From positions 1 through 64,000 of the forward strand of contig NZ_CYSF01000006.1 in assembly GCF_001458435.1 (NCBI RefSeq): a stretch of DNA of 64,000 bases. The letters are read 5' to 3'. Under the pieces are notes generated by a model that ran no database searches, was not told where the DNA came from, and worked only from the letters and a program-made list of their open reading frames with translations. A program made the position numbers and the translations under genes. Below are positions 20,210 through 52,018 of this stretch, piece after piece. Positions within the stretch are counted from its first letter, which is position 1. Every line of letters starts with the position of its first letter. The stretch comes from Thalassovita mediterranea. GTDB taxonomy: Bacteria > Pseudomonadota > Alphaproteobacteria > Rhodobacterales > Rhodobacteraceae.

Positions 20210-22021
20210 TTATGCAGTCGCCACCTCTGGCGATGCCATCCAGATCAGCTGCCACTCTGGCCCAAAGACAGGCGAGTGATCCGCATTTTGCACATGAGGC
20301 ATGCCTTTTGGATCAATCGCCAAGAGCATCTGTGCCCCCGCCGCCTCTGCCTGCCAAGCAGAATAACCGAAGGCATCCGTCAGACGGGTCAGACGCAACG
20401 TGGCACCGCGGCCCATCGCGCCTTCCAAATCTCCATAGCTCAGTCCATCAGCAAAGCCGCGTCCGCCAAGGGTGCTTGGCAAATCATGATGGGCCTGCCC
20501 CTCTTTGGCGTGGGCCAGTTGAAAGATGTTTCCACGACCGAACTCTGGCGCCAGATCTGTGGTCACCAAGGTGTTGTAGGCATCGTTGTCTGTCAGGGCG
20601 AAAATCTGGTCGAATTGCTGCAATTCCAGCGCCTCTTCGGCGCATTCTGACAGGATGTCACCATAGTAGGTGCGCACTCCTGCCTGCCGCGCCGCACGCA
20701 AGCGACTGCGATTAGGATCGGTTATCAAAACCGGCACCTCAGCCTTATGCAGAGTTTCAGCCAATGCCAGCGAAAAACGCGATCCCCCAACCAGCAAAAC
20801 ACCCGGCTTGCGCCCACCGGACAAACCAAGAAGGCGCGCCACAGGGCCAAGCGTGAAGCCATGCAAAACCACTGTTGCCACAACCAGCACGAAAGCCAAA
20901 GGCGCTACCAGTTCCCCATCAGGAACCCCCAGTGCAGCCAATCTCTCCCCGAACAGGCCAGCGACCGCCACCAGCACCACACCGCGCGGACCAGTGAGCG
21001 CCACCAGCACTCTTTCGCGCCACGGCAAATCAGTCCCAAGGAGCGACACCAAAACAGTCAGCGGACGCGCCAGCAGGATAACCACCGCCACAAACAGCCC
21101 TGCCCGCCAGTTAAGCTGCGCCAGCGTGGACAGATCCAGCGACGCTGCCAGCAGGATAAACACGCCCGAAACCAACAGGATGGTTGCGTGTTCCTTGAAC
21201 CGTCGTAGTTCCGCGTATGACGGCAGGTCCGCATTCGCAATCACCAGCCCCATGATGGTCACTGCCAATAGCCCACTTTCATGCAGCACCGTGTCAGATG
21301 CGGCAAAAACTGCAATCAAAACAACAAAAAGCACCGGAACCTTCATGTATTCCGGCACCCATCCACGGCGGAAAGCACGGGCAATTCCCTGCCCGCCGAC
21401 CCACCCCAGTAGCGTCGCCACCACAACGCCGACCAACAGCGCCTGCGTCGCATGGGTAATGGTTTCTGCGGTGTTGAGCACAACCACCACTTCGAACGCC
21501 AGCACTGCCGCCAGCGCGCCGATGGGATCATTGACGATCGCTTCCCATTGCAGCAATGCGGCTGGCCGGCGGGATAACTTGGCTTGTCGCAAAAGAGGCG
21601 CGATCACCGTCGGCCCTGTTACGATCATGATCCCACCAAATACAGCAGCGGCCTGCCAACCGACCCCTGCCCCGTAATGCAGGGCAGCGGTTGAACTCAA
21701 CCATCCCAACGGGGCACCTAGGACAACCAGCCGTTTCACCCCCTGCGAAGCGTCATTCAACCGGTGCAGGTTCAGGGTCATACCGCCCTCAAACAGGATG
21801 ATTGCCACTGCAACCGACACCATCGGCCCAACCAAAGGACCAATGTCGCGCGCCGGATCCAATATGCCAAAGATCGGCCCTATCAAAACACCAGCCAACA
21901 GCATCAGAACAATGCCCGGCAGTTGCAATCGCCACGCCAGCCACTGCGCCCCCACCCCCAACGCCCCAACCAGCGCAATCGCGTTTATAGGACTTAGTCC
22001 GAGTGTGTCGGGGTTGGCCAT
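20210..22021 (-). CDS. Cation:proton antiporter with C-terminal nucleotide-binding domain
   Basis: A 603-residue membrane protein with a 12-13 helix CPA-type exchanger domain (about 10-400) and a soluble C-terminal domain. The helix-5 region reads WEAIVNDPIGALAAVLAF, containing the N-D pair of electroneutral CPA1 exchangers, which suggests Na+/H+ or K+/H+ exchange. After about 405 a TrkA-N-like Rossmann segment begins (GVLLVGGSRFSLALAETLHK), ending at about 520, which suggests gating by a nucleotide. Single gene, 21 bases downstream of dgt on the same strand. Confidence 0.87.
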   Translation of the reverse strand: MANPDTLGLSPINAIALVGALGVGAQWLAWRLQLPGIVLMLLAGVLIGPIFGILDPARDIGPLVGPMVSVAVAIILFEGGMTLNLHRLNDASQGVKRLVVLGAPLGWLSSTAALHYGAGVGWQAAAVFGGIMIVTGPTVIAPLLRQAKLSRRPAALLQWEAIVNDPIGALAAVLAFEVVVVLNTAETITHATQALLVGVVVATLLGWVGGQGIARAFRRGWVPEYMKVPVLFVVLIAVFAASDTVLHESGLLAVTIMGLVIANADLPSYAELRRFKEHATILLVSGVFILLAASLDLSTLAQLNWRAGLFVAVVILLARPLTVLVSLLGTDLPWRERVLVALTGPRGVVLVAVAGLFGERLAALGVPDGELVAPLAFVLVVATVVLHGFTLGPVARLLGLSGGRKPGVLLVGGSRFSLALAETLHKAEVPVLITDPNRSRLRAARQAGVRTYYGDILSECAEEALELQQFDQIFALTDNDAYNTLVTTDLAPEFGRGNIFQLAHAKEGQAHHDLPSTLGGRGFADGLSYGDLEGAMGRGATLRLTRLTDAFGYSAWQAEAAGAQMLLAIDPKGMPHVQNADHSPVFGPEWQLIWMASPEVATA

Positions 22022-22042
22022 GATGACGGTCCTTCTTTGGGG

Positions 22043-23230
22043 TCAGTCGTGGTGTTGAATGGGCGTCGCGCGGCGGCCAGCGGGAATGGGTTTGCGGCCT
22101 GTCAGGTGTTCAGCTTCTTGCAGGGCGAAACGGTCGGTCATTCCGGCGATATAATCCGACACGATGCGCGCCAGTTCCACATCATTGCTGACCTCTGCCA
22201 CATCCTTGCGCCATTGCTTGGGCAGCAACTCGGGTCGCTGCATGAAGATCGGGAACAATTCGTTCACCGCGTCGGTCACATATTTGCGGATCTCCACCAC
22301 CTCTGGCGCGCGGTACATGCGGGTAAACAGGAACTGACGGATCTGTTTTAGATCCGCCCACACCGCGGGCGAAAACTGCGCCATCATCCGCCCCGCATCG
22401 CGCACATCCTGTGCGGATTGCGGATCGACCTCTGCCAAATTGGCGCGGGTGACGGCGATCACATCCTCCACCAACACGCCAAAGAAGCGGCGCAGCGCCT
22501 CATGGCGGCGGCGGTAGTAGTTCAGACCGGGATATTTGCTGTCCACCTCACCAAAACAATCGTGCAGGATCGGCATCTGGGCCAGTTCGTCTGTCGAAAA
22601 CAATTCTGCCCGCAGGCCGTCGTGCAGATCGTGGTTGTTATAGGCGATGTCATCCGACAGGGCGGCCACCTGCGCCTCGGTGCTGGCGTGGGTGTGCAGT
22701 TCTAGGTCATGCTGCGCATTATAAAGCTCCAGCGCCCAAGGCACGTCGCCGACAACCGGACCGTTGTGCTTGGCGATCCCTTCCAGTGTTTCCCACGTCA
22801 GGTTCAGCCCGTCCCATTCGGCGTAGTGGCGTTCTAGGTTGGTCACAATGCGAATGGCCTGCGCGTTATGGTCAAAACCGCCATAGGGCTCCATCAACTC
22901 CGCCAGCGCATCCTCACCCGTATGGCCAAAGGGCGTGTGGCCCAGATCATGGGCCAGCGCCACCGCTTCGGCCAATTCCTGATTAAGGCCCAATGTGCCG
23001 GAAATGGTCCGCGCCACCTGCGCCACCTCGATCGAGTGGGTCAGACGGGTGCGGAAATAATCACCTTCGTGTTCGATAAACACCTGCGTTTTATGTTTCA
23101 GCCGCCGAAAGCTGCTGGCGTGGATGATCCGGTCACGGTCACGCTGAAAACAAGAGCGAAAGGCGCTCTCTTCCTCGGGGTGCAGTCGGCCGCGGCTGTC
23201 ACCGGGGCGGGATGCAAAAATGGCGCTCAT
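22043..23230 (-). CDS. dgt: Deoxyguanosinetriphosphate triphosphohydrolase-like protein
   Basis: A 395-residue HD-domain hydrolase that splits dNTPs to deoxynucleoside and triphosphate. RDRDRIIHASSFRRLKHKTQ (about 30-49) and RTRLTHSIEVAQVARTI (about 61-77) are the family entry motifs. The metal site is His65, His94-Asp95 in AHDLGHTPFGH, and an Asp in ALSDDIAYNNHD further on. It is the type-2, dGTPase-like length of about 390-400 found in alphaproteobacteria. It diverges from the Fe-S carrier gene across 233 bases. Confidence 0.9.
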   Translation of the reverse strand: MSAIFASRPGDSRGRLHPEEESAFRSCFQRDRDRIIHASSFRRLKHKTQVFIEHEGDYFRTRLTHSIEVAQVARTISGTLGLNQELAEAVALAHDLGHTPFGHTGEDALAELMEPYGGFDHNAQAIRIVTNLERHYAEWDGLNLTWETLEGIAKHNGPVVGDVPWALELYNAQHDLELHTHASTEAQVAALSDDIAYNNHDLHDGLRAELFSTDELAQMPILHDCFGEVDSKYPGLNYYRRRHEALRRFFGVLVEDVIAVTRANLAEVDPQSAQDVRDAGRMMAQFSPAVWADLKQIRQFLFTRMYRAPEVVEIRKYVTDAVNELFPIFMQRPELLPKQWRKDVAEVSNDVELARIVSDYIAGMTDRFALQEAEHLTGRKPIPAGRRATPIQHHD

Positions 23231-23463
23231 ATCTTTTGGCCTTTGCCTGTTAATGCCTCAATTATGCTCTCTTGCAGGAACTCTAGCGGTTCCTTTCATA
23301 ATTTGGACCAAACGCAGCGTGCGGTGGTGTTTTTATCCAACTGTCACCCTGCTGCGAACCGGACGCATTCTGCGGCGCCTCTCTTGTCGTTGGTCGCTGG
23401 CCCACATATATTCCAACTCACACCGTTTGCGAAACACTTTGCGACAGATCCGGAGCGACGACC

Positions 23464-23799
23464 ATGCAATTGCCCCCCAATGTGACCGACCGTGCCTTTG
23501 CCCGCCTTGCCGAAATTGGCGCTGGCGCCCAAGGTCAGGCGCTGCGCGTCGCTGTTGAGGGCGGCGGCTGTTCCGGGTTTCAGTATGAGATCAAGCTGGA
23601 CGAACCCGCCGACGACGATCTGGTACTAGAGGGCAGCGGTGATGGTGCGGGCGAAAAGGTGATTGTGGACGCAATTTCCCTACCGTTCCTGACCGGCGCG
23701 ACCATTGATTTCACCGAAGAACTGATCGGCGCGCGGTTTGTCATCGACAACCCAAATGCGTCATCCTCTTGCGGCTGCGGCACCTCCTTTTCGATGTGA
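23464..23799 (+). CDS. erpA: A-type iron-sulfur carrier protein (HesB/IscA family)
   Basis: A 111-residue HesB/IscA/ErpA protein that accepts and passes on Fe-S clusters. The three conserved cysteines are present: Cys36 in GGGCSGFQYE, and Cys103 and Cys105 in SSSCGCGTSF. VDAISLPFLTGATIDFTEEL is the usual central segment. It stands outside any suf or isc operon, which favours the ErpA role of delivering clusters to target enzymes; naming it erpA rather than another A-type paralogue is inference. The ATG follows a GGAG at about eight bases. Confidence 0.85.
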   Translation: MQLPPNVTDRAFARLAEIGAGAQGQALRVAVEGGGCSGFQYEIKLDEPADDDLVLEGSGDGAGEKVIVDAISLPFLTGATIDFTEELIGARFVIDNPNASSSCGCGTSFSM

Positions 23800-23867
23800 G
23801 GTCTTACCTGCTTGCACCCCCTGCCCTGCGTCAGGCATAGACAGGGGGCAACAGGAGGGCCCAGCGC

Positions 23868-24686
23868 ATGAAAATCGCCACGTTCAACATCAACGGCATC
23901 AAAGCGCGGATCAATGCGCTGAGCGACTGGCTGGATGAAGCCCAACCCGATGTGGCCCTGTTGCAGGAAATCAAATCCGTTGATGAAGCCTTCCCGAGCG
24001 AAATGTTCGAGGAAAAAGGCTATAACGTCGTCACCCACGGCCAGAAAAGCTTCAACGGGGTTGCGATCCTGTCGAAACTGCCGCTCGAAGATGTGACGCG
24101 CGGCCTGCCCATTCTGGCAGATGGCGATGAGGCGGACGAACAGGCCCGCTGGATTGAGGCCACGGTGGTGGGCAAACAGGCGGTACGTCTTTGCAACCTC
24201 TACCTGCCAAACGGCAATCCGGTGGAGTTGACCGAGGATGGCCAGCCGGTGCCGGGCGGCAAATACGCCTACAAACTGCGCTGGATGGAACGGATGCATG
24301 CGCGTGCCCAGCAGCTATTGGCCGAAGAAGCGCCGTTCCTGATGGCCGGCGATTACAACATCATCCCACAGGCCGAGGATGCCAAACGCCCCCAAGCTTG
24401 GGAAGGGGACGCGGCCTACCGCCCTGAGAGCCACGCAATGTGGCGCAAACTGCTGAACCTCGGCTTTACCGAGGCGTTTCGCAGCCGCACTTTTGGCGCG
24501 GGGCACTACAGTTTCTGGGATTATCAGGCAGGCGCGTGGAACCGTGATGACGGCATCCGCATCGACCACTTCCTTCTCAGCCCGCAATGCGCGGATCTGC
24601 TGCTGGACTGTCAGATCGACAAAGAAGTGCGCGGCCGTGAAAAGCCATCCGATCACGTGCCGGTCTGGGTTGAACTGGATCTGTGA
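23868..24686 (+). CDS. xthA: Exodeoxyribonuclease III
   Basis: A 272-residue endonuclease/exonuclease/phosphatase-fold enzyme, the AP endonuclease and 3'-5' exonuclease of base-excision repair. MKIATFNINGIKARINALSD with the metal-binding Asn, LLQEIKS with the metal-binding Glu, ARWIEATV, FLMAGDYNI (Asp and Asn) and the final SDHVPVWVELDL (Asp-His pair) make up the full active site. A strong AGGAGGG precedes the ATG. It follows the A-type carrier gene after 68 bases and is convergent with the monooxygenase gene. Confidence 0.95.
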   Translation: MKIATFNINGIKARINALSDWLDEAQPDVALLQEIKSVDEAFPSEMFEEKGYNVVTHGQKSFNGVAILSKLPLEDVTRGLPILADGDEADEQARWIEATVVGKQAVRLCNLYLPNGNPVELTEDGQPVPGGKYAYKLRWMERMHARAQQLLAEEAPFLMAGDYNIIPQAEDAKRPQAWEGDAAYRPESHAMWRKLLNLGFTEAFRSRTFGAGHYSFWDYQAGAWNRDDGIRIDHFLLSPQCADLLLDCQIDKEVRGREKPSDHVPVWVELDL

Positions 24687-45066: not shown

Positions 45067-45082
45067 TCTATCTGACCAAAGA

Positions 45083-47437
45083 TCAGTTCGGGATCAGATC
45101 CGGAACGATGGTCACGATGGACGGAACCGCCCACAGCAGGGCCAGACCGGCCACCTGGATCAACACAAACGGGATGATACCGCGGTAGATGTGACCCGTG
45201 GTGACACTCGCCGGTGCAACGCCGCGCAGATAGAACAGCGCGAAGCCAAACGGCGGGGTCAGGAACGAGGTCTGCAAGTTTACTGCCACCATGATCGTCA
45301 CCCATTTCGGATCAAAGGTGCCGCCATAGATGACCGGCCCCACGATCGGGATCACGATGTAGATGATTTCCAGGAAGTCGAGCACGAAGCCCAGCACGAA
45401 GAGCACCAGCATCACGATCAGGAAGACCGTCAGCTCGTTGTCGAAACTCTTCAGGAATTGCTGGATGTAATGCTCACCCCCGAAGGAGATCACGACAAGG
45501 TTCAGCAGCTGCGACCCGATCAAGATGGTGAACACCATCGAGGTCACTTTGGCCGTTTCGCGCACCACTGGGCTAAGTACGCCCGAGCGGAACAGAACCC
45601 AACAGCTGTAAAGCAGACCGAAAGCTGCATACAGATAGGCCGAGTAGGCTGCGAAGAACGCGATCCAGGTTTCTGCCGACACCTCTTTGGTGTTGATACG
45701 CAGGTCAAAGTTCATGCCCAGCAGGATCATGATCGCCACCGCGAAGGTGGAGTTGATGATGACCTTACCCGATGCATCCTCATCCTGCAGCTTGCGGTAG
45801 GCCGCCAGCATGATCGCACCAGCCGCACCCAGCGCCGCAGCGGGCGTCGGGTTGGTGATACCACCCAGGATCGAGCCCAGCACCGCAACGATCAGAACCA
45901 GCGGCGGGAACACCACGCGGATCAGTTCGTTTTTGGTGCAGCGCAGCACAGCTTCCTTACAGCCATAAAGCGCCAGCAGGGTCGGCAGCGCCATCAGCAC
46001 CACAGTGCCACCTGCGCTGGTGGTCGGCGCGATCAGCAGGATGTCGACCAGCGCCAACAGGACCAGACCCATTGCACCAAGGATCAGCGGCTTCGTGTCC
46101 TTGGAGGGCGCGACGCCACGACCAAAGGCCAGCACCAGACCCAGTGCGATGATCAGGATCGAGATGCCGGTGCCGATCGGCGCGGCGGCTTCGGCCTTGG
46201 CGACGCGGGCGGCGTTGATCTCATCCTCGGTCAGCTTCACTGCCTCGTTCGAGGTGCCAGCGGCATCCAGTGCAGCCTGTTCGGCAACCGCGATGTCCCA
46301 AGCCTCTTGACCGTGCAGGGTGATCATCGACGCTTTACACTGTTCGCCCACATTGGTGCGCAGCGATGCGCCTTCACCAACGTCGGTGTAGCTGTCAACG
46401 GTCAGGTCCTGCGACCCCACCAGACCCAGATTGCCTGCCAGCATCACAGCAGCGATCAGACCAACCGGAACAAAGATGAACCAGGTCAGACCTTCACCAC
46501 GGGTGATGGTTTCATGGCTGGACGGTTCCATCTGGACCGCAGGGGCCTTGGATGGGTTCAGCAGAGCATAGCCAAAGGCATAAAGCGCATAGAGCAGCGC
46601 CAGCATGACACCCGGCAGCAGTGCCGCCTGGAACAGTGTACCAACGGACAGAACCGCCGGCTCACCCAGATAGGTCAGCGCGTCGGTACAGCCTGCCTCA
46701 ACTGCGCGTGCTTCTTGCGCAGCAGAGTAGAGGTCGCCCGCCAGCGTGCCCAACAGAACGATCACGATCGACGGTGGAATGATCTGCCCCAGCGTGCCCG
46801 ACGCAGCAATCACACCAGTTGACAGTTCAGGGCTATAGCCGTTGCGCAGCATGGTCGGCAGCGACAGCAGGCCCATGGTCACAACAGTGGCGCCCACGAT
46901 GCCGGTCGATGCCGCCAGAAACGCGCCCACAACCACAACCGATACTGCCAGGCCGCCGGGCAGCGGGCCAAAGACGCGCGCCATAGTGGTTAGCAGATCG
47001 TTTGCGATCTTGGAGCGTTCCAGCGTGATACCCATCAGAACGAACATCAGAACCGCCAGCAGCGTTTCGATCGACTGACCGGCCAGAACACGTTCGTTCA
47101 TCCGGTTAACGATGAACGAAATGTTGCGGTTCATCGCGTCTTCCCAACCTTTGGGGAACACAGGTTCCTCAAGTCGTGGAAGATCCGGGTATCGGAAGAC
47201 CGAGATGATTTCCTCTTTCACCCCAGAGGCGACAAGCGCCGCATAGGCATCCGACCCAGTGTCGATAGCCTGGTGAATAAGCAGTCCAGCGCTGTCCAGC
47301 GCGGCGATGATCCCGAAGGAAATAACCCCTGCACCACCGATGGCGAAGGCCACCGGGAAGCCCGACAGAATCGAGCCGAACAGGCAGAGGAAGACGATAA
47401 GCAGGCCGATTTCGACCCCATCAAGTCCAAAAAGCAT
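45083..47437 (-). CDS. TRAP transporter large permease (DctM), extended form
   Basis: A 784-residue integral membrane protein, against about 430 for a standard DctM. The conserved core is recognisable: TGIVGATVVTMGLLSLPTML with SGTLGQIIPPSIVIVLLG (about 195-212) in the N-terminal half, and FLEIIYIVIPIVGPVIYGGT with NLQTSFLTPPFGFALFYLRG near the end. The extra length comes from a soluble insertion after the second helix (about 50-110) and a large central region (about 300-560) with several added helices and a polar segment (about 370-415). It carries the ion-coupled transport of an organic acid with DctQ and a binding protein. Follows the small permease by 16 bases. Confidence 0.9.
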   Translation of the reverse strand: MLFGLDGVEIGLLIVFLCLFGSILSGFPVAFAIGGAGVISFGIIAALDSAGLLIHQAIDTGSDAYAALVASGVKEEIISVFRYPDLPRLEEPVFPKGWEDAMNRNISFIVNRMNERVLAGQSIETLLAVLMFVLMGITLERSKIANDLLTTMARVFGPLPGGLAVSVVVVGAFLAASTGIVGATVVTMGLLSLPTMLRNGYSPELSTGVIAASGTLGQIIPPSIVIVLLGTLAGDLYSAAQEARAVEAGCTDALTYLGEPAVLSVGTLFQAALLPGVMLALLYALYAFGYALLNPSKAPAVQMEPSSHETITRGEGLTWFIFVPVGLIAAVMLAGNLGLVGSQDLTVDSYTDVGEGASLRTNVGEQCKASMITLHGQEAWDIAVAEQAALDAAGTSNEAVKLTEDEINAARVAKAEAAAPIGTGISILIIALGLVLAFGRGVAPSKDTKPLILGAMGLVLLALVDILLIAPTTSAGGTVVLMALPTLLALYGCKEAVLRCTKNELIRVVFPPLVLIVAVLGSILGGITNPTPAAALGAAGAIMLAAYRKLQDEDASGKVIINSTFAVAIMILLGMNFDLRINTKEVSAETWIAFFAAYSAYLYAAFGLLYSCWVLFRSGVLSPVVRETAKVTSMVFTILIGSQLLNLVVISFGGEHYIQQFLKSFDNELTVFLIVMLVLFVLGFVLDFLEIIYIVIPIVGPVIYGGTFDPKWVTIMVAVNLQTSFLTPPFGFALFYLRGVAPASVTTGHIYRGIIPFVLIQVAGLALLWAVPSIVTIVPDLIPN

Positions 47438-47453
47438 AAGTTAGTCCTCAGCC

Positions 47454-48401
47454 TTAGTGCGTGCCTTCATAGGCTTCTTCACCTTCGCCAAGCGTATCCT
47501 TGTCGAGGTATTTGCCTTCGCTTTCCGGGCCTTCTTTCCACTCAAGGTACGAGCGGTAGAAGAACGCGATCCCGTGCAGGAAGATCATGGCGGCAAATGC
47601 CACAAGCAGGATCTTGAACAGGAAGTAACCCGAGAAGCCGTTGGGCGAGAAGCCGATGGTTTCCACGTTCCAGCGCAGAGCGCGCGATTTTGCGATCAGC
47701 CGTTCCAGTTTGTCCGAGGCCGACGGCTTCGGTACAATCAGATGGCGCCACATGAAGAACCAGCCGTACAGCCAGATCAGCGTTGCAGCGGGCAGCATGA
47801 AGATCAGCGAACCGATCATGTCGATCATCTTCTTGGTGCGGTATTTCACGCCCGAGTAGACCAGATCCACCCGCACATGGCCGCCCTGCACAAAGGTGTA
47901 AGACGCACAGAGTGCCACAACGAGAGCGTTGTAGAACTTCAGCTCTTCGGCGTACCAGCTGATGTCGAACTGCAGAGGCACACCAAAGCCGAACACGATG
48001 TCAGGCCGGGTAAAGATCCGCTGCATGAAAACGATGATAACCTGTTGCAGCACCATCAAGAGGCCTGCCCAGGCAAAGAAGCGGCCGGTTGTGTTGGCAA
48101 AGCCTTCCAGCCCGCGCACAATCGCCCACATGAAGTTGCGCTTCCACATGCCGATCGCGGTTACGATCAGGAAGGTGGTGAAGACGACAAAGAAGAACTC
48201 TACCGAACCACCGTAGTAGACAAAGCGCATGATGGCTTGCTTGTCGGACCAATCCAGCCACAGGCTGGGGTTGGTGACGGCATAGCCGAAGTTATAGAAC
48301 GCCAGGGCGATGTTCTGGATGGTCCAGACAAACAAATCGCCAATGGACGCCAGAATCTGCCCAAAACCGGCAGCGCTGGATTCCTGCATGATATCCCCCA
48401 T
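47454..48401 (-). CDS. TRAP transporter small permease (DctQ), extended form
   Basis: A 315-residue membrane protein with four core helices typical of DctQ plus extra N-terminal and C-terminal hydrophobic segments; ordinary DctQ proteins have 160-200 residues. The family region runs about 95-260 (LLMVLQQVIIVFMQRIFTRP, FVQGGHVRVDLVYSGVKYRT, where H-V-R-V-D is the DctQ hallmark). It pairs with the large permease next to it. ATG 48401 follows AGGGGAA; an in-frame ATG at 48389 is also possible. The binding-protein gene lies 95 bases upstream in the same orientation. Confidence 0.88.
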   Translation of the reverse strand: MGDIMQESSAAGFGQILASIGDLFVWTIQNIALAFYNFGYAVTNPSLWLDWSDKQAIMRFVYYGGSVEFFFVVFTTFLIVTAIGMWKRNFMWAIVRGLEGFANTTGRFFAWAGLLMVLQQVIIVFMQRIFTRPDIVFGFGVPLQFDISWYAEELKFYNALVVALCASYTFVQGGHVRVDLVYSGVKYRTKKMIDMIGSLIFMLPAATLIWLYGWFFMWRHLIVPKPSASDKLERLIAKSRALRWNVETIGFSPNGFSGYFLFKILLVAFAAMIFLHGIAFFYRSYLEWKEGPESEGKYLDKDTLGEGEEAYEGTH

Positions 48402-48496
48402 TTCCCCTATCCATGGTCACAGCTTCGCGGGGTTGCGGCTGGACCGGAACGGGCCCCGGAATTCCGAGGCCCGCCCACTATCGGTTAACTGACAGC

Positions 48497-49582
48497 TTAG
48501 CCGCCCAGAACGCGTACGCGCTGCTGGACGTAGTAGCCGTCCGACTTGTTGATCCACGAGGCCGAGGTGGCCAGCGAAGCTTCGAACGAGTTGCGGATTT
48601 TGGCGAACAGTTCGTCGCCCATGTTTTCGTCCATAACCTCTGCGGAGGCTTTGCCGAATGCGTCCCATACGTCGTCCGAGAACTGCAGGGTTTTCACGCC
48701 TTGGCTCTGCAGACGGGCCAGTGCGGCGCCGTTGTTTGCCAGGGTTTCGGCCAGCTGGAACTGGGTCACAGCCATAGAAGCGTAACGCAGGATCGCTTTG
48801 TGTTGATCCGACAGTTCGTTCCAAACGTCCAGGTTGACCGAGGAGGCCAGCGCCGAACCCGGCTCGTGGAAGCCTGCGGTGTAGTAGACTTTGGCAACTT
48901 CTTGGAAGCCGGCGCGTTCGTCAGCCATCGGGCCAACCCACTCCAGACCGTCCAGAGCGCCGGACGACAGCGCCTGATACAGTTCACCACCGGGGATGTT
49001 CTGAACGGATGCGCCCAGTTTACCCAGAACTTTGCCACCCAGACCGGGCATACGGAACTTCAGACCGTTGAAGTCATCAGCGGAGTTGATTTCTTTGCGG
49101 AACCAACCACCGGACTGCGAACCGGAGTTACCTGCCAGCAGACCTTTCAGGTTGAAGATCTCGCCCAGCTCGTCGTGCAGCTGCTCGCCGCCGCCGTGGT
49201 AGTACCAGTTCGATACTTCCTGTGCGGTACCGCCGAAGGGTACTGCGGTGAAGTAAGCGTAACCGGGATGCTGGTTGATGTAGTAGTAGTCAGCGGAGTG
49301 GTACATGTCTGCCTGGCCCGAAGACACAGCATCAAACACTTCCAGTGCGCCCACCAGTTCACCCGGTGCTTTTTTGTCGATGGTCAGAGTGCCACCGGAC
49401 ATTTCGCCAACCATTTTCTCCATGTAGCTGGCGGCATCATCCAGAACCGCAAAGCCGCGCGGCTAGGAGGTTACCATGGTCAGGGTGCGCTTGCCTTGGG
49501 CGTAAGCCGGGGCCGCCAGAGTGGAGGCCGCAGCGGCCGAACCGCCCAGTGCGGAAGTTTTCAGAAAAGAACGACGATCCAT
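48497..49582 (-). pseudogene. TRAP substrate-binding protein (DctP/TakP type) interrupted by an in-frame TAG
   Basis: From the ATG at 49582, which has GGGAGGA upstream, the frame reads MDRRSFLKTSALGG and an Ala-rich stretch to APAYAQ, a twin-arginine signal peptide. It then continues GKRTLTMVTS and meets TAG at 49465-49463 as codon 40. The same frame goes on directly as PRGFAVLDDAASYMEKM and stays open for 308 residues from the next usable ATG (49423) to the normal end, with family segments GELVGALEVFDAVSSGQADM, NWYYHGGG, GGWFRKEINSADDF and ALSSGALDGLEWVGPMADER. The full product would be 361 residues. In relatives an aromatic residue, usually Trp, sits at this place, so TGG to TAG is the likely change. 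Restart at 49423 would give a protein without signal peptide. Sequencing error or suppression cannot be excluded. Confidence 0.85.
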
Positions 49583-49680
49583 ATATTGGTCCTCCCATTG
49601 GTCACAGCCCGTCTGTTACGGCTCTGGGCCGAAACAGCGGGCGGATCGTTTTCAGTGCGCCAAACCTACCAACACATGTC

Positions 49681-49709
49681 ATTATGGGAATACCTACTAC
49701 TACGTAGAA
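49681..49709 (-). promoter_or_regulatory. Candidate regulated promoter of the TRAP operon
   Basis: On the minus strand CATAAT (49686-49681) makes a good -10 box, while the position of the -35 box is poor and is instead occupied by the palindrome CTACGTAG (49700-49707) next to GTAGTAGGTA. This is the layout of an activator-dependent promoter; the adjacent NarL-type regulator is the natural candidate. Inference only. Confidence 0.35.
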
Positions 49710-49830
49710 CGCCCCCTAATTCACCTTAAGCCCTTAAAATTAGCCTATTTTTAAGACAAAATCTGCATACGCAGCGTCCATTCAGCGAAAATCCTAACGG
49801 GATCGCGCAAAGGCGAATGCGGTATTTCTA

Positions 49831-49843
49831 CCCAGTATCTGGG
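49831..49843 (+). promoter_or_regulatory. Small palindrome before the histidine kinase gene
   Basis: CCCAG-TAT-CTGGG lies 44 bases before the kinase start in the 304-base divergent region. No other gene was seen in this region. Confidence 0.3.
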
Positions 49844-49886
49844 GTGTGTTTTGCCTTTGATGGCAAAATTTCGTAACGAATCAGCT

Positions 49887-51350
49887 ATGCACTTTTTCAG
49901 ATTCCCCTTTCGCCCCAACTACGGCCAAAAGCTGACGCTGCTGGCGACATTGCCCCTTATTGTGGCTGTGGCGGCCATCTCATTACTGGTGGCGCACCAG
50001 TCCCGCCTGATGGCGGAGCGCGAGATCAAGGCGATGGAAGAACAGCTGATCGAGGCGAAAAAAGCCGAGCTGAAAAACTACGTCACCCAGGCCCGAAACG
50101 GGTTTTACTTTATATACGGCAGTGCGTCACCCAACGATGACGCGGCCAAGGAACAGGTGATGCAGATCCTGTCAGCGATGATCTACGGCGAAGAAGGCGC
50201 GTTCTTTGTCTACGACTATGATGGCAACAACCTGGTCAGTCCGCGTCAGACAGGATTGATCAACAACAACTGGCTGGGTTTGAAAGACAGCGAAGGCACC
50301 CCAGTGGTGGATGAACTGCTGGACATTGCCCGTTCTGGCGCGGGCTATCACAGCTATCTGTGGCCCAAACCATCCACCGGCGAAGAGGCGCGGATGATCA
50401 CCTATGTCACCTCTTTCCCCAGTTGGCGGTGGGCGGTGGGCACTGGCGTGTTCATCGACGATGTTCTGGCCAGCACCGCCGCTGCACGGGCAGAGGTTGA
50501 GGCGCGCGTGCGCCGCACCTTCCTTTATATCGGGGCCATCACGCTGACGGCGGTTCTGGTTGTCTTTGCATCGGGCATGTTCCTGAATATCCGCGAACGG
50601 CGGTTGGCCGATGTGAAACTGAAAGAACTGAACCAGCGTGTTTTTGATGCGCAAGAAGAAGAGCGCGGGCGCGTGGCGCGGGAACTGCATGATGGTATCA
50701 GCCAGATCCTTGTCGGGGTGCGCTATGCACTGGATACCGCCAAACTGCGGTTGAAACAGGGTGATGACCGCGCAGGCGACACGCTGGACAAGGGTATCGG
50801 CAACCTCTTGGGCGCGATCCAAGAGGTGCGCCGCATCAGCCGCGACCTGCGCCCAGCCGCGCTGGATGATCTGGGCCTTGGCCCTGCCCTAAAAGCACTG
50901 ACGAACGATTTTGCCAACCGCACCGGGATCGAAACCGAATTTAACACCGTCGTCTTTCGCAACCGACTGGATCAGGAAAGTAAGATCGCCCTTTACCGCA
51001 TTGCCCAAGAGGCGCTGACCAACATCGAACGCCACGCAAATGCCACCAAGGTCAGCGTCGATATCCGCGGCCACCGCAACGGCGCCACTATGGCGATAGA
51101 GGACAACGGCGAAGGCATACCCCAAGATACAGCGCGCGGCGATCGCCCCGGTGGATTTGGCCTGCGCAACATGCAGGAACGGATTGAACAACTTGACGGA
51201 CAGCTTAAAATCATATCTAGCCGCGACGGTACGTTGATCGAGGTTCAGCTGCCGCTCAGCCACCTGTTGCCGCCAGAAGACCCCAGCGATCCGCCCACCA
51301 AGACCGCATCGCGCATCTTTGAGACGACCAAAACGGGAGCAGCTTCATGA
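49887..51350 (+). CDS. Cache-domain sensor histidine kinase (NarL-system type)
   Basis: A 487-residue membrane kinase. Helix 1 (about 15-37) and helix 2 (about 211-233) bracket a periplasmic single-Cache domain with the segments GEEGAFFVYDYDGNNLVSP and WPKPSTGEEARMITYVTSFP. The cytoplasmic part has a HisKA_3 dimerisation domain with phospho-acceptor His268 in RVARELHDGISQIL, then an HATPase domain (QEALTNIERHANA as N-box, EDNGEGIP, GGFGLRNMQER). Cache domains of this kind usually bind small organic acids. Upstream in-frame starts (49860, 49851) cannot be ruled out. Overlaps the regulator gene by four bases and diverges from the TRAP operon, so it probably controls it. Confidence 0.9.
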   Translation: MHFFRFPFRPNYGQKLTLLATLPLIVAVAAISLLVAHQSRLMAEREIKAMEEQLIEAKKAELKNYVTQARNGFYFIYGSASPNDDAAKEQVMQILSAMIYGEEGAFFVYDYDGNNLVSPRQTGLINNNWLGLKDSEGTPVVDELLDIARSGAGYHSYLWPKPSTGEEARMITYVTSFPSWRWAVGTGVFIDDVLASTAAARAEVEARVRRTFLYIGAITLTAVLVVFASGMFLNIRERRLADVKLKELNQRVFDAQEEERGRVARELHDGISQILVGVRYALDTAKLRLKQGDDRAGDTLDKGIGNLLGAIQEVRRISRDLRPAALDDLGLGPALKALTNDFANRTGIETEFNTVVFRNRLDQESKIALYRIAQEALTNIERHANATKVSVDIRGHRNGATMAIEDNGEGIPQDTARGDRPGGFGLRNMQERIEQLDGQLKIISSRDGTLIEVQLPLSHLLPPEDPSDPPTKTASRIFETTKTGAAS

Positions 51351-52018
51351 CGGACACCGCCGAAGACACCCACGACACCGCACCGGTCAAACTGGTCATT
51401 GTCGATGATCACCCAATGGTCGCCGAAGGCATCCAATCCATCCTCGAAAGCTACGATGACCTAGAGGTACTGGCCACCTATCAGAGCGGCCGCGCCATTA
51501 TTGATGCAGTCGAAGAGATGCAGCCCGATGTTATTCTGATGGACCTGAACATGCCCGATGTCGGCGGGTTGTCCGCGACAGAGATCATTCTGGAACGCAG
51601 CCCCGACACCCGCATCCTGATCCTAAGCATGCATGATTCACGCGAGTACATCTCAACCGCGCTGGCCCATGGGGCGATGGGCTATGTGCTAAAGGATGTG
51701 CCAACCGAAGAGATCAAGACAGCGATCGACACGGTGATGGGCGGAGAGCGCTACCTTTGCACTGGCGCGCAAGGCGCATTGGATCCAAGCGAAGGCAAGG
51801 CGCGCGACGCACTTACCGGCCGCGAACAGACGATCCTGCTGCAATTGGCGCAGGGCAAATCGAACAAAGAGGTGGCGCAGGCACTAGAAATATCCGTGCG
51901 CACTGTTGAAACCCACCGCAAGAACATCAAACGCAAGCTGGGCATTTCCTCAACCGCGGGTCTGACACGCTACGCGCTGGAACATGGTGTTTTGCAGGGC
52001 ACCGGTGTCAGCCTCTGA
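51347..52018 (+). CDS. NarL/FixJ-family response regulator
   Basis: A 223-residue response regulator. The receiver domain has VIVDDHPMVAEGIQ (acidic pair), phospho-acceptor Asp66 in VILMDLNMPDVGG, the Ser of LILSMHD and the Lys in YVLKDVPTEE. The LuxR-type helix-turn-helix runs from about 155 (LTGREQTILLQLAQGKSNKE) through VRTVETHRKNIKRKLG. Its ATG overlaps the kinase stop (ATGA), so the two are a cognate pair. Likely target: the divergent TRAP operon. Confidence 0.92.
   Translation: MTDTAEDTHDTAPVKLVIVDDHPMVAEGIQSILESYDDLEVLATYQSGRAIIDAVEEMQPDVILMDLNMPDVGGLSATEIILERSPDTRILILSMHDSREYISTALAHGAMGYVLKDVPTEEIKTAIDTVMGGERYLCTGAQGALDPSEGKARDALTGREQTILLQLAQGKSNKEVAQALEISVRTVETHRKNIKRKLGISSTAGLTRYALEHGVLQGTGVSL

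Follow-up and report, generated by a model that had tools for sequence, protein, structure and literature searches.

Does a single in-frame stop codon in the binding-protein gene of a Thalassovita mediterranea TRAP transporter mark a system caught in the act of being lost, an interruption that the cell bypasses, or an error in the assembly? The window, that is, the whole stretch of 64,000 nucleotides that was analysed, carries the gene within a transporter operon facing a divergent regulatory pair, with the following features:

48497..49582, minus strand: TRAP solute-binding protein gene of the DctP family, interrupted (361 codons plus terminal stop)
49463..49465, minus strand: premature TAG, codon 40 (read from the sequence; a stop there in 0/80 related loci, the best 80 of 584)
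49499..49582, minus strand: Tat signal peptide region, first 28 codons (TIGR01409; cleavage site placed by eye)
48497..49423, minus strand: open frame from the first ATG past the stop (codon 54), without signal peptide and N-terminus
47454..48401, minus strand: DctQ small permease, 315 aa, open (PF04290 over cut-off)
45083..47437, minus strand: DctM large permease, 784 aa, open (PF06808 over cut-off)
49689..49707, minus strand: conserved 19-base element CTACGTAGTAGTAGGTATT, 106 bases before the start codon
49851..51350, plus strand: sensor histidine kinase with Cache domain (best NCBIfam model MctS, below cut-off)
51347..52018, plus strand: LuxR-type response regulator (profile match)

The interrupted gene and its operon

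A preliminary description of the locus had reported a TRAP binding-protein gene with a Tat signal and one in-frame TAG at codon 40, and its start, signal, stop and open remainder were all verified: the ATG at 49582 is preceded by GGGAGGA and followed by the twin-arginine motif RRSFLK, and past codon 40 no stop occurs until the TAA ending at 48497. The twin-arginine model TIGR01409 scored the whole protein at 20.5 bits, above its cut-off of 16.7 (no single stretch alone passed 0.001), which marks it as exported, yet the signal sits upstream of the TAG. When the frame was read with X at the stop, residues 49-319 matched the Pfam DctP family (PF03480) with 175.8 bits against a cut-off of 23.4, and the subfamily model TIGR00787 remained under its cut-off (52 vs 175.05). 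Residues 1-361 aligned with the genes of congeners, with up to 98% identity and no internal stop in any of them, which together with the Pfam match rules out a chance open frame. Crude gene calling also returned an antisense open frame of 438 aa (48413-49729, plus strand); the matching frame across the gene has no stops in congeners G001, G002 and G003 and two in G007, so that it was set aside as a gene and is probably an artefact of codon composition.

The two genes next to the binding-protein gene encode the DctQ and DctM permeases of a TRAP system. In congeners G007, G003 and G002 both have end-to-end alignments to open frames, and the response regulator aligned in full with all three; the kinase aligned end to end with G007, and with G003 and G002 over residues 13-484, in agreement with the earlier view that the permease genes and the kinase/regulator pair are intact. 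The best NCBIfam model for the kinase was MctS, with 556 bits, under the cut-off of 700. The 784-aa DctM matches the 413-position DctM profile in two separate stretches, and the 315-aa DctQ compares with a profile of 132 positions, which points to large extra segments; frame lengths are similar in the congeners.

In G007 the transporter and kinase/regulator cassette is inverted and has neighbours that in the window lie 20 kb from it (L114 1-10623 vs window 22010-24676 and 45081-52014), whereas three other congeners examined share the arrangement of the window; judging from this synteny, the cassette appears to have been relocated as one unit. Compared with G007, the window's three transporter genes show a silent divergence of about 0.3, and the kinase and regulator genes next to them one of 0.9-1.0, a contrast that would reflect either strong codon constraint or recombination. 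The element CTACGTAGTAGTAGGTATT had at least 16/19 matches, at a similar distance to the gene, in 39/80 related loci (best 80 of 584), and at most 13 matches, near chance, in 27/80 of the same set; the best match among 80 shuffled stretches was 14. The divergently encoded response regulator may bind this element.

Codon 40 in relatives and the age of the stop

The collection search used as query only the part of the protein past the internal ATG, so that loci with an upstream stop were not disfavored, and the best 80 of 584 confirmed stretches were kept. The codon aligned with the stop was TGG in 77/80 of these loci and a Val codon in the other three, and a stop in none. A second set comprised loci L081-L113, from a search of 61 genomes (that of T. 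mediterranea included; 48 with a match) and from one of the T. mediterranea genome alone; 32 of these 33 loci aligned at the stop codon, the exception being L083. Apart from the window itself (TAG) and two distant paralogues from the same genome (Ala and His), the aligned loci were 29 genes from other genomes, with Trp in 28, Val in one and a stop in none, although the two sets may have species in common. The lesion, as in a point-nonsense pseudogene, is missing from these relatives, and the alignment, which the preliminary description had called for in search of a Trp, supports the TGG-to-TAG change that it had proposed. Among eight congeners, four have an orthologue with 88-98% identity, none of them interrupted, and the best match in the other four was 61-68% identical. 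A distant match in G045 (47%) showed an internal TAA in the genome search, with no stop in the best BLAST segment of the locus.

In the 80 related loci (best 80 of 584) the frame extends in phase upstream of the internal ATG, across a stretch resembling a signal peptide, and the alignments of the 29 genes from other genomes begin at residue 1, so the internal ATG is not the start of the family and was ruled out as the true start; the alternative raised beforehand, that relatives begin there with a different export signal, fell with it.

Selection on the frame was estimated against the nearest congener, G007. The binding-protein gene yielded dN 0.0087, dS 0.324 and dN/dS 0.027, with ratios of 0.034 for DctQ and 0.025 for DctM. 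Changes were assigned to branches with G002 and G003 as outgroups, which left 13 differing sites unassignable; the window branch received 21 silent changes and one replacement (Tyr to Phe at 275) in addition to the stop, and the G007 branch 36 silent and six replacement changes. Neither dN/dS nor the branch counts revealed an excess of replacements in the interrupted frame, and, as no relaxation of selection would be expected from a very young or erroneous lesion, the gene was not classed as an established pseudogene. The start codon, the ribosome-binding site before it and the 19-base upstream element are also retained. A frame free of decay behind intact upstream signals implies that the stop either arose very recently or is absent from the organism, the same pair of explanations, recent mutation or read error, at which the preliminary description had arrived.

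Mutation, assembly error or rescue

The main rival is that the TAG stems from an erroneous read or consensus base and that the gene is whole in the organism. The near absence of decay means that a mistake in base calling or assembly explains the sequence equally well: there is no sign of relaxed selection in the frame, the operon has no other break, and the difference is one isolated substitution. The points against it are indirect. The genome, in 19 contigs, has a listed completeness of 100% and a contamination of 0, suggesting a good isolate assembly, and the codon-40 change is a transition in a CCWGG context, in which C to T changes are somewhat enriched on the window branch (3/29 CCWGG C sites vs 46/2528 others across the three transporter genes; Fisher p 0.017, post hoc; 1/29 CCWGG C sites on the G007 branch). 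We regard such an error as unlikely, though a serious second to mutation.

Dcm-type deamination was not upheld as the cause of the stop and is suggestive only. One C5-methyltransferase gene was found in the genome, with 282 bits for TIGR00675, a broad superfamily model named dcm (cut-off 100.65), but it scored far too low for the narrower PRK10458 model (224 vs a cut-off of 710). CCWGG occurs 51 times in the window against 164 expected, which may be due to codon usage; the count of CTAG is only mildly low (55 vs 76 expected).

Could the TAG instead be bypassed, thanks to leaky termination or a suppressor tRNA, with enough full-length protein made? TAG is rare as a terminator in the window (2 of 53 crudely called frames, against 29 TAA and 22 TGA, one of these frames being the doubtful antisense one), so suppression would be cheap, and purifying selection on the frame is intact; the youth of the stop, however, accounts for this conservation by itself. 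ARAGORN, run on loci covering all 47 tRNA genes found by an Rfam search of the genome (30 loci and 15 stretches; a tRNA missed by Rfam would escape), detected a CUA anticodon in 0/47, which argues against a suppressor tRNA. Release factor 1 shows no damage, being an open frame of 369 aa that matches TIGR00019 over profile positions 34-358 of 361 with 483.8 bits (cut-off 423.25), and the genome's other DctM and DctP matches have no internal stop. Read-through is accordingly very unlikely, and the notion that UAG, a seemingly rare terminator here, is naturally leaky or suppressed and keeps the binding protein at a reduced, possibly regulated level is even harder to credit.

The permease might also be served by another binding protein, given that five other DctP genes are present in the genome. 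Profile searches of the genome recovered six DctP genes, this locus included, each adjoining a DctM gene, and seven DctM genes (from eight matches, the window's DctM having been matched in two pieces). The seventh DctM gene, on contig C3, is a frame of 886 aa whose length suggests a fused permease, and no DctP match was found on that contig. Since all six DctP genes found adjoin a DctM gene, no orphan DctP gene was apparent with the DctP-family profile, and such a gene serving this permease was ruled against within that family. The five others thus each lie beside a DctM of their own, and the three that a search with this protein retrieved share only 24-26% identity with it, so that service by another binding protein is the least probable of the explanations considered. 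Of the three outcomes foreseen in the preliminary description, a silent transporter therefore stands, beside the read error, whereas dependence on another binding protein (no orphan among the DctP genes found) and rescue by suppression (no CUA anticodon among the 47 tRNA genes found) are disfavored.

A very young nonsense mutation disabling one of seven TRAP permease systems is the most likely explanation, an ordinary one, and in our judgment probably correct, with consensus error second. A premature UAG would have been gained very recently at codon 40, and translation would end about ten residues into the mature protein; a restart at codon 54, the next start codon, would yield a product without signal peptide, and polar effects on dctQM are possible. 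A TRAP permease depends on its binding protein, and a stop in the binding-protein gene would leave the permease without it, so that the system should be silent. We infer that the stop is present in the living cell and not in the assembly alone, and that transport has been lost. If the stop is real, the locus presents a transporter caught at the moment of loss. The genome, at 3.4 Mb, is smaller than those of seven of eight congeners and about equal to the eighth, which is incomplete. Automatic annotation could report a truncated protein that begins at 49423 or, alternatively, a functional TRAP system; both would probably be wrong.

Comparison with known systems

Among characterized proteins, TakP of Rhodobacter sphaeroides (PDB 2hzk/2hzl; named SmoM in the PDB) is a 2-oxo-acid TRAP binding protein with which residues 1-347 of the window's protein aligned (E 1.5e-66). 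The two share a similar N-terminal signal and an EWVGP stretch, but takP is uninterrupted, and TakP has Phe where most relatives of the window's protein have Trp. Tyr100, Gln156, Arg177, Glu214, Trp215 and Glu240 are reported to contact the cation or pyruvate in TakP, and an R. sphaeroides takP mutant reportedly showed no difference on various 2-oxo acids (PMC1839085), suggesting that loss of the binding protein may cost little. The best match among solved structures was the ketoacid-binding protein PDB 7ug8 (E 9.1e-68), which has Trp at the stop position and, unlike the window's gene, is encoded without interruption. The probable substrates are 2-oxo acids or monocarboxylates, the former being suggested by sequence likeness to TakP and 7ug8.

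A further comparison is with the orthologues of G007, G003 and G002, which are 97-98% identical, share the reading frame and the signal peptide, and differ in having no stop. Young bacterial pseudogenes with a single nonsense mutation, like the gene in the window, combine a lone point change with a frame that is otherwise under selection.
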